Made by a program: the position numbers and the translations under genes. Below are positions 11,846-14,795 of a stretch of DNA of 34,151 nt, piece after piece. Origin of the DNA: an uncultured Nitrospinota bacterium. GTDB lineage: Bacteria; Nitrospinota; Nitrospinia; Nitrospinales; VA-1. The stretch lies in contig CAJQRI010000068.1 of assembly GCA_905612265.1 (NCBI GenBank), forward strand, positions 1 through 34,151, read 5' to 3'. The notes below the pieces were generated by a model. The model ran no database searches, was not told where the DNA came from, and worked only from the letters and a program-made list of their open reading frames with translations. Position 1 is the stretch's first letter; the number at the start of each line of letters is the position of its first letter.

Positions 11846-13222
11846 TCAATCACTTGGCAATTGTTTAAGCAGTTCTTCCGCAGGATAGGTTAGGATCTCT
11901 GCCAAGGTAGGATGGTAATGCGGTATCTCTGCAAGGTCTTTCACCGTACCGCGAAAATGCATGAGAGTGATGATCTCATGAATCAGTTCTCCTGCTTCCG
12001 GTCCAACAATATGACCTCCCAACACTTCTCCAGATACAGGATCGCAAAGTAGTTTCACGTGACCCTCTGTTTCTCCCAAACACATAGATTTTCCGTGATC
12101 GTCAAAGGAATAGGATGCGGTCAGATAAGCGATCTTACTGGCTTGACATTCCTTTTCGCTCAATCCCACACTGGCAACTGCCGGATCGGTAAAAACGACG
12201 GAAGCTTTGAGACGATCATTAACCTCACGTTCGTTCTCGGGGTGCATAGCATTGAAGCCCGCCACTTCTCCTTGCTGAATGGCGATATGCACGACCTCAT
12301 GAATTCCATTCACGTCACCAACTGCAAAAATATGTGGCTGATTGGTTTTCATTTTTGTATCGACAGTAACGCGGCCTTTGTGGATTTTAACACCGGCTGA
12401 CTCCAGTTGTAGCCCATCGATGTTAGGTCTTCGTCCCAATGCCTGCAGGATGAGTTGAGCGCGGACATTCTTTTCTTTTCCTTCATGCTGGAAATAAACG
12501 ACAGGGTTTCCCTTGTCCTTCTCGGTTCGCAGAAGCTTTGTTCCGGTATAAAGATTCATACCCTCTTTGCGGAGCCGGGTTTCGACCGGTCGCGCCAAGT
12601 CTTCATCGCCTGACGATAATATATGCGAACTTCGTTGCAGGAGCGTTACTTTAATGCCGATGCGCAATAAAAATTGTGCAAGCTCCACCGCCACCGCTCC
12701 GGCACCCAGAACAATGATTGACTCTGGAGCCTCGCGCATTTTTAAAACATCATCGCTGGTGACAAAACCGGTTTCTTCGAGACCAGAAATAGGATAGTCG
12801 GCAATCACAGAGCCGGTTGCTATGATGAAGGATTTTGCCTTGAGGGTTTTGTCCCCGATGCGGATTTTGTGTGCGGAGATGAACTCCGCCTGTTCCTGGA
12901 TGAGCGTGAATCGGGGATCATTCAGTTGCTCGATTCGGTAATCGGCAAATTCCTTGATGAGTTTGTTTTTGCGATCATTGATGTCGGGAAGGTGAGCTTG
13001 CGGGTCAACAGACTGAATGCCAAACTCTTTGGCCCGACGCATCAACGCCATAATGTCAGAGGAACGCAAGATTGTTTTAGTCGGCATGCATCCCTTAAGA
13101 ATACATAACCCCCCCAAAGGCCCAGGGTCAATAATGGCTACCCTGGCTCCTAGCGATTGAGCGGTAGATGCCGCAGAATAGCCTGCTGAACCGCCGCCGA
13201 TGATAGCGACATCAAAATCCAT
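11846..13222 (-). CDS. dihydrolipoamide dehydrogenase-like flavoprotein disulfide reductase
   Basis: Class I pyridine-nucleotide disulfide oxidoreductase, 458 residues. It has the FAD Rossmann motif IIGGGSAGYSAA (7-18), a redox pair Cys40/Cys45 in GGLCILKGCMPTK, an NAD(P)-binding Rossmann motif (VLGAGAVAVELAQFL, ~172-186), a second FAD motif IFAVGDVNG (~298) and the C-terminal HYHPTLAEI with the His/Glu active-site pair. Dihydrolipoamide dehydrogenases usually have CLNVGC, so this is a divergent member and could be a mercuric-reductase-like or unknown disulfide reductase. Its place against the gcv genes makes an L-protein role attractive, but that is inference. It follows the TPR gene by 12 bases. 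Confidence 0.8.
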   Translation of the reverse strand: MDFDVAIIGGGSAGYSAASTAQSLGARVAIIDPGPLGGLCILKGCMPTKTILRSSDIMALMRRAKEFGIQSVDPQAHLPDINDRKNKLIKEFADYRIEQLNDPRFTLIQEQAEFISAHKIRIGDKTLKAKSFIIATGSVIADYPISGLEETGFVTSDDVLKMREAPESIIVLGAGAVAVELAQFLLRIGIKVTLLQRSSHILSSGDEDLARPVETRLRKEGMNLYTGTKLLRTEKDKGNPVVYFQHEGKEKNVRAQLILQALGRRPNIDGLQLESAGVKIHKGRVTVDTKMKTNQPHIFAVGDVNGIHEVVHIAIQQGEVAGFNAMHPENEREVNDRLKASVVFTDPAVASVGLSEKECQASKIAYLTASYSFDDHGKSMCLGETEGHVKLLCDPVSGEVLGGHIVGPEAGELIHEIITLMHFRGTVKDLAEIPHYHPTLAEILTYPAEELLKQLPSD

Positions 13223-13863: not shown

Positions 13864-13955
13864 ACTCGGCGTGGGGCCAATTAGTAATAGCCGGATTTGG
13901 CTGGCAAGGGGTTATCTAGGCTTAATACGTTTTTGCCCAATTCCCTTCTGTGGGG
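13864..13955 (+). repeat. dispersed intergenic repeat, divergent copy
   Basis: Holds CTCGGCGTGGGGCCAATTAG, shared with 14663-14682 and with the inverted copy at 1151-1228, then a poorly kept core (GGATTTGGCTGGCAAGGGG) and an end, AATACGTTTTTGCCCAATT, like that of the 16.9 kb copy. Confidence 0.6.
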
Positions 13956-13990
13956 ATGGGCTATTTGGCGTGAGGTCAGTGTTTAAACCT

Positions 13991-14018
13991 CTCCCTGAGA
14001 AGGGGGATTGAGGGGGTT
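13991..14018 (+). repeat. REP-like hairpin with G-rich tail, copy 1
   Basis: CTCCCT and AGGGGG pair around the loop GAGA, followed by ATTGAGGGGG. The copy at 14768 differs by only three bases over this span. Confidence 0.6.
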
Positions 14019-14061: not shown

Positions 14062-14334
14062 ATGCCAATAGAACCAGGTACAGATGAAGAAAGACTCACG
14101 TTGGGACGTTGGATTAAACAAGGGCAAAGTCTTATTGTTGGGACTTCGGCTTTAGGCGACTCCTATTTGGACCCCAATGTCAAAAGGGAAGAGGATATTG
14201 AGAAAAAATCACAAGATTATGTGGCATTTGACCATCAGGTTGCAGAAGAACTTCCTCATCTTTTGGGAAGGTTTCGCTGGGATCTGGAGAAATATTATCG
14301 TGACCGTTATGGTCCTTACCTGCCACAGGACTGA
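14062..14334 (+). CDS. small protein of unknown function, coupled to the Rieske-like gene
   Basis: A 90-residue soluble protein starting MPIEPGTDEERLTLGRWIKQGQ. The ATG at 14062 follows AAGGAAAAGG and is preferred over a start at 14008 that lies in the REP-like hairpin. It is rich in charged residues and ends RWDLEKYYRDRYGPYLPQD; no motif or domain is recognised and it has no cysteine. It ends two bases before the ATG of the Rieske-like gene, so the two are translated together and the products may form a complex. Confidence 0.65.
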   Translation: MPIEPGTDEERLTLGRWIKQGQSLIVGTSALGDSYLDPNVKREEDIEKKSQDYVAFDHQVAEELPHLLGRFRWDLEKYYRDRYGPYLPQD

Positions 14335-14336
14335 TC

Positions 14337-14660
14337 ATGTCTAAACTCAAAATTTCAGAACTCAGCGATGTCCCGCCGGAAGGGACCGGCAAACAAATTA
14401 ACTTTAAACATCAATACACCGAGATCGACTACGTTCTTGGGCTGTTTCAGGTTAAGGGTATATTTTATTGCATCACCGACCAGTGCCGCTGTTGCTCAGG
14501 GAGTCTAGGGCAGGGTGTGTTGAAAGACATGTTTGTCTTCTGTCATAAAGATGCATGCGGCTGGAATATTAGAAAAGGACATTGCAAATTCAACCGCTCG
14601 GATATCACCCCCACCTATAAAGTCACATCTGAAGAAGACGGTCTATACATCGAAATCTAG
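14337..14660 (+). CDS. Rieske-fold protein with cysteines at the histidine-ligand positions
   Basis: A 107-residue protein shaped like a small Rieske ferredoxin: a first beta region (KISELSDVPPEGTGK), a strand with a cysteine (GIFYCITDQC), the cluster loops at 50-83, and a closing TPTYKVTSEEDGLYIEI that matches the usual end of Rieske ferredoxins. Normal Rieske proteins bind [2Fe-2S] through C-x-H...C-x2-H. Here loop 1 is Cys50-Arg-Cys52-Cys53 and loop 2 is Cys69-x4-Cys74-Gly-Trp, with 16 residues between Cys52 and Cys69 as in true Rieske spacing. His70 and His82 are present but not at ligand spacing. It may bind an all-cysteine [2Fe-2S] cluster or another metal. Likely a cytoplasmic electron carrier or metal protein; the partner is unknown. 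Confidence 0.7.
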   Translation: MSKLKISELSDVPPEGTGKQINFKHQYTEIDYVLGLFQVKGIFYCITDQCRCCSGSLGQGVLKDMFVFCHKDACGWNIRKGHCKFNRSDITPTYKVTSEEDGLYIEI

Positions 14661-14662
14661 TA

Positions 14663-14720
14663 ACTAGGCGTGGGGCCAACTAGAATAGCTTTATCTGGCG
14701 AGAAAAGAGTTGTCTCAGCC
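14663..14720 (+). repeat. dispersed intergenic repeat, well-kept copy
   Basis: ACTAGGCGTGGGGCCAACTAG, then AATAGC and TTTATCTGGCGAGAAAAGAG (one mismatch to the core), then TTGTCTCAGCC. It begins two bases after the stop codon of the Rieske-like gene. Confidence 0.7.
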
Positions 14721-14767
14721 CGCTGGTCGATAAGCGTCACGAGTCGCGAAAACCCTTAAATGATCTT

Positions 14768-14795
14768 CCCCCTGAGAAGGGGGACTGAAGGGGTT
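14768..14795 (+). repeat. REP-like hairpin with G-rich tail, copy 2
   Basis: CCCCCT and AGGGGG pair perfectly around the loop GAGA, followed by ACTGAAGGGG. Enclosed by the 12-base inverted repeat at 14738 and 14809. Confidence 0.6.

Follow-up and report, generated by a model that had tools for sequence, protein, structure and literature searches.

The window analysed here is a stretch of 34,151 nucleotides from an uncultured Nitrospinota bacterium of the order Nitrospinales (contig CAJQRI010000068.1). It contains, on the forward strand, a gene for a small protein that we call Rieske-C, directly preceded by a partner gene and, beyond it, by two divergently oriented genes. The features to which we refer are as follows.

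11846..13222, minus strand: dihydrolipoamide-dehydrogenase-like FAD/NAD(P) disulphide oxidoreductase, divergent; present by homology cluster at 46 of 50 loci, several loci ending at contig ends
13235..13765, minus strand: TPR protein, divergent, with TPR Pfam matches; 49 of 50 loci
14062..14334, plus strand: partner, a 90-aa protein of unknown family, ending 2 bp before Rieske-C
14337..14660, plus strand: Rieske-C gene, 107 aa, from the open reading frame and its translation
14409..14432, plus strand: family-specific insertion in the strand 2-3 hairpin, enclosing residues 25-30 (gap in the hhalign alignment)
14484..14495, plus strand: loop 1, C-R-C-C, with proposed ligands C50 and C53, invariant in 50/50 orthologues
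14484-14486, plus strand: C50 codon, TGC
14490-14492, plus strand: C52 codon, TGT
14493-14495, plus strand: C53 codon, TGC
14541..14558, plus strand: loop 2, C-x4-C, with proposed ligands C69 (50/50) and C74 (position 74 is C/H)
14541-14543, plus strand: C69 codon, TGT
14556-14558, plus strand: C74 codon, TGC

The two loops read D-Q-C50-R-C52-C53-S-G-S-L-G and F-C69-H-K-D-A-C74-G-W76, and the window copy contains neither of the Rieske [2Fe-2S] motifs, C-x-H and C-x2-H. The cysteine codons had been described as unambiguous in a preceding sequence-only reading of this DNA, and TGC or TGT was indeed read at all five positions. The strand opposite the reading frame is closed, with no open antisense counterpart, no signal sequence was recognisable on the protein, and a promoter scan gave no result. 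Searched alone, the window copy matched no Pfam family. A minority of its orthologues gave weak matches to PF00355 or PF13806. The NCBIfam HcaC/PRK09965 ferredoxin model matched the window copy over residues 2-107, the match (E=1.8e-9) falling short of the curated cut-off.

Profile comparisons and a predicted structure nevertheless indicate that the relationship of this open reading frame to Rieske proteins is real. The AlphaFold2 (AF2) model built from 39 sequences was mostly beta and confident (pLDDT 90.9, pTM 0.81), and Foldseek aligned it with Rieske ferredoxins at TM 0.75-0.85; the best 50 matches were Rieske ferredoxins, NirD, and Rieske oxygenases, with a probability of 1.00 and a query TM-score of 0.71-0.85. 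The family profile matched that of ten canonical Rieske ferredoxins encoded within Nitrospinales (hhalign, 99.4%, E=6e-22), and an orthologue profile run against the PDB with HMMER retrieved Rieske ferredoxins (best 9.8e-7). Rieske-C thus shows both the all-beta fold and the detectable homology expected within the Rieske fold superfamily, which bears out the earlier proposal of a Rieske fold with cysteines in place of the histidine ligands. It does not have the rubredoxin fold with C-x2-C-G ... C-x2-C-G, since its own fold is Rieske and its loop 2 is C-x4-C/H.

Rieske-C resembles the Rieske-type ferredoxins of dioxygenase systems (BphA3/BphF, CarAc, HcaC) and NirD in size, all-beta fold, and sequence, and shares with them the inner Cys of both loops, the Gly that follows, and the loop length. 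It differs from all of these in lacking C-x-H and C-x2-H, its putative outer ligands lying at +3 and +5, and in carrying an insertion of about six residues with invariant H25 and T28. The segment concerned also contains an invariant Y32, its final residue. The end-to-end line-up noticed earlier is not strict, being interrupted by this insertion (about residues 25-30) before strand 3.

Both metal-binding motifs aligned without gaps to canonical Rieske proteins (hhalign) and to PDB ferredoxins (HMMER), the sole gap near the motifs being one residue between the loops, and the next conserved Gly follows the loop-2 Cys at a distance of 12 in the Rieske-C family and in canonical Rieske proteins alike. 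In this gapless register, C53 lies one residue past the Rieske His position, and, counted from the loop-2 Cys, residue 74 is at +5 and W76 at +7, an aromatic position; the strand predicted by AF2 at residues 75-77 fits. We take +5 and +7 to be Ser163 and Tyr165 of the bc1 Rieske protein, in bovine numbering, which would place residue 74 at the Ser163 position. In bc1, Ser163 hydrogen-bonds to a cluster sulphide and Tyr165 to the first Cys ligand (PMC12445004), and because the Ser163 position contacts the cluster, a Cys or His at +5 would be well placed to reach a metal. Reading C-G-W as the equivalent of H-G-W would require an insertion and a compensating deletion, chosen by neither hhalign nor HMMER, and the earlier view that the GW after loop 2 stands in Rieske register has to be given up.

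The conservation of the cysteines was analysed among orthologues. C50, C53, and C69 were the only invariant cysteines in 50 sequences and are among the invariant residues of the family, and position 74 was Cys in 43, His in 13, and Thr in 1 of 57 distinct orthologues. Cys74 was found in all Nitrospinaceae-type sequences (family f1), His74 in families f2 and f4, and Thr74 in L037, from the single genome of family f3. Position 52, the loop-1 Rieske His position, was occupied by Cys (15), Lys (15), Ser (6), or other residues (n=50), C52 being lineage-specific. As C52 varies and C53 does not, the site would be C50-C53-C69-[C/H]74, and, on these alignments, loop 1 supplies C50-x2-C53 and loop 2 C69-x4-[C/H]74 to the conserved ligand set. 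These results amend the ligand set proposed earlier (Cys50, Cys52, Cys69, and Cys74). The retention of its cysteines in homologues lacking the Rieske histidines was seen for C50 and C69, with the histidines mostly absent, but not for C52, and an all-cysteine site describes only the Nitrospinaceae, since position 74 is His, or Thr in one genome, elsewhere. In the confident AF2 model, the cysteines are predicted to lie in both metal-binding loops, C50/C53 and C69/C74 forming one pair per loop, which partly answers the earlier call for a structure prediction.

Other candidate ligands were less well conserved. His70 and His82, put forward as unusual ligands, were present in 6/50 and 1/50 orthologues, respectively, and so cannot be ligands of the family. 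C83 was found in 40/50, but its absence from family f2 and its occurrence in canonical Rieske paralogues make it unspecific. A C53-C74 disulphide as the common function is excluded by the Cys/His exchange at position 74. One position that swaps Cys and His while the others stay fixed is typical metal-ligand behaviour, and the presence of one or the other in 56 of the 57 distinct sequences supports a metal site.

In a tree of Rieske-C and its partner, from which column 74 was omitted, a single branch (support 99) separated the sequences with Cys74 from all others. The His74 form may be the older state, since loop 2 of canonical Rieske proteins has a His. A His at the loop-1 Rieske position was found in only two of the 57 distinct orthologues, L033 and L036. 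In both, which belong to genus g13, loop 1 is C-K-H-C, with this His and the new Cys together, and this loop is possibly an intermediate form.

The altered ligands are not peculiar to the window. Searching 60 relatives returned full-length orthologues at 36-93% identity, without internal stops, and a phylum-wide profile search detected Rieske-C in 58 of 77 genomes (one copy being a fragment at a contig end), all of them in four families of one order, Nitrospinales; the altered ligand set is common to 57 distinct full-length orthologues. These genomes are mostly metagenome-assembled (MAGs), and the collections cover part of the species. The profile search found no Rieske-C in the rest of the class (13 genomes), and, at E<=1e-15, none was detected beyond the phylum (310 genomes). 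In a further phylum (151 genomes), the 30 matches inspected were all canonical Rieske proteins, and a plasmid search gave only four weak matches of about 30%, of which one carries the annotation HcaC and the other three lie where no gene is listed. Two small phyla, when searched, gave no matches at all and are uninformative on distribution. Rieske ferredoxins with the canonical C-x-H/C-x2-H motifs are also encoded in Nitrospinales genomes.

Within the genus, the NG86 dN/dS of this short protein was about 0.08-0.25, synonymous changes exceeding nonsynonymous ones per site about four- to twelve-fold. Judged by these ratios, Rieske-C is under purifying selection across Nitrospinales, and decay of a single copy is contradicted both by them and by the 57 orthologues. 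In genus g15, Rieske-C was cut after about residue 27 in G045 (L110 2867-3309) and missing in G047 (L109 1428-1900), with the partner intact in both genomes. Rieske-C is thus not indispensable, and either the partner is useful by itself or Rieske-C was lost only recently.

The closest precedent for such a site was engineered. In the Sulfolobus Rieske ferredoxin (ARF), Iwasaki et al. introduced the substitutions H44I/K45C/H64C and obtained a mononuclear Fe(Cys)4 site that was thermostable, whereas cluster assembly largely failed in the H44C/H64C protein (PMC2946596). As in Rieske-C, loop 1 of the engineered ARF is C-x2-C, with its second Cys one residue past the Rieske His. In loop 2, however, the ARF Cys stands at the Rieske His position (+3, H64C), giving C-x2-C, whereas the putative fourth ligand of Rieske-C stands at +5, giving C-x4-[C/H]; Rieske-C is moreover natural and order-wide. 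The failure of H44C/H64C, together with the Fe(Cys)4 site obtained by a one-residue shift, suggests that a single-metal site fits Rieske-C better than an all-Cys [2Fe-2S] cluster. Rieske cluster loops have long been noted to resemble rubredoxin and zinc-ribbon scaffolds (PMC2946596). Rieske-C has in common with both the four-ligand layout C-x2-C ... C-x(n)-C, but its whole-chain fold is Rieske and it has no significant sequence match to either.

The probable explanation, in our view, is that a Rieske scaffold holds a mononuclear site of natural origin, occupied by Zn or Fe; both the binding of a metal and its being a single one are what we infer for this protein. The Cys2His2 site of the Rieske [2Fe-2S] cluster would be replaced by one tetrahedral metal site, to which loop 1 would contribute C50 and C53, and loop 2 C69 and C74 (His74 in the sister families). 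The inner Cys of each loop would be retained from Rieske, and the outer ligands would be shifted: in loop 1, a Cys at +3 would take the place of the His at +2, and in loop 2, a Cys or His at +5 that of the His at +3, yielding a rubredoxin- or zinc-ribbon-like site. These data suggest that nature has turned the scaffold of a two-iron cluster into a single-metal one. Zn(II), structural or thiolate-reactive, is more likely than Fe in rubredoxin-type electron transfer, since one ligand exchanges between Cys and His among families; zinc or another metal had also been considered earlier, and is plausible. Against a mononuclear site stand the C-x4-C of loop 2, compared with C-x2-C in rubredoxin and in the engineered protein, and the Thr74 of L037. 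C-x2-C pairs occur in [2Fe-2S] ferredoxins too. As a rubredoxin variant is also able to take up a [2Fe-2S] cluster (PMC2946596), the spacing does not settle nuclearity.

The main rival is a low-potential [2Fe-2S] cluster, which we regard as possible but rather unlikely. The scaffold is that of a Rieske protein, the Rieske ferredoxin engineered with H64C alone carries a low-potential [2Fe-2S] cluster of the 3Cys-1His type (PMC2946596), a Cys/His exchange at the fourth ligand would suit such a cluster, and the reductive TCA cycle of Nitrospina needs a low-potential ferredoxin (PMC3578206). However, the loop-1 outer ligand lies at +3 rather than +2, and in the engineered protein this +3 placement gave a mononuclear site, while an all-Cys swap at the Rieske positions, in the one scaffold tested, largely failed to assemble a cluster.

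Two further explanations dispense with a metal. The cysteines could act as a thiol/disulphide redox switch or persulphide carrier without a stable metal, serviced by the lipoamide-dehydrogenase-like flavoprotein, a divergent conserved neighbour of the disulphide reductase family. One of these cysteines is nevertheless a His in 13/57 orthologues, and three invariant Cys plus a fourth position alternating between Cys and His, all at the end of a metalloprotein fold where the metal is bound, form a ligand pattern, so that we consider this function improbable. It is even harder to believe that Rieske-C is a decayed ferredoxin that lost its cluster and was retained solely as a scaffold for structure or protein binding. 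The His ligands are gone and the gene was lost in one genus, but the dN/dS of about 0.08-0.25 speaks against decay, as do the new cysteines, whose invariance across four families is unlike what decay leaves.

The mononuclear site, if true, would be a natural case of a switch between Rieske and rubredoxin or zinc-ribbon sites, of which we found only designed cases. Our literature search, with subscription journals mostly beyond its reach, found no naturally occurring Rieske-fold protein described with this set of ligands, and an earlier description is possible. A natural switch, with His and Cys forms in sister families and canonical paralogues alongside, would make testable what fixes the cluster type of a scaffold. 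The fuller proposal, namely an order-fixed family in which ligand sliding in both loops turned a Rieske scaffold into a single-metal site, with 3Cys-1His and 4Cys forms in sister families and a dedicated partner resembling nothing known, seems to us slightly more credible than not. Nitrospina, which belongs to Nitrospinales, is among the major marine nitrite oxidisers (PMC3578206). With regard to a possible tie to nitrite oxidoreductase, a search for NxrB-like proteins (TIGR03478) gave matches in genomes of three of the four families, and missed many good MAGs.

The partner gene lies directly upstream of Rieske-C, on the same strand, in 50/50 loci. Of 64 Nitrospinales genomes, 61 contain it, the gene pair being nearly universal in this order; no copy was detected in the genomes searched outside it. 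In matched sets, the mean column identity was 81% for the partner and 72% for Rieske-C. The window copy of the partner is cysteine-free, and AF2 predicted three helices (pLDDT 91.7); no Pfam, NCBIfam, PDB sequence, or PDB fold match and no significant PHROG match was obtained. We found no assigned function for the pair, and Rieske-C would most likely form a two-protein module with this 90-aa protein, as the half that binds the metal.

The flavoprotein matched TIGR01350 at E=1e-112, below the cut-off, and its link to Rieske-C is a positional association only. In the window, the neighbourhood is preceded by gcvT-gcvH-gcvPA, an arrangement that is not universal. A pair of short repeats occurs on either side of the two-gene operon (13864-14018 and 14663-14795), with order and orientation unchanged between the two sides: one of 21 nt containing GGCGTGGGGCCAAYTAG, followed by one of 29 nt containing CCTGAGAAGGGGGAYTGARGGGGTT. 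The incomplete assembly holds one further copy of the 21-nt repeat, with one mismatch, and no further copy of the 29-nt repeat. In several genomes, a protein with a Tat-like signal is encoded near the operon (L102 10572-11309 and similar f2 loci). This protein, examined by eye, putatively resembles the sulphite oxidase/YedY molybdopterin family, and it is accompanied by a second, putative mercuric-reductase-like flavoprotein, also recognised by eye.
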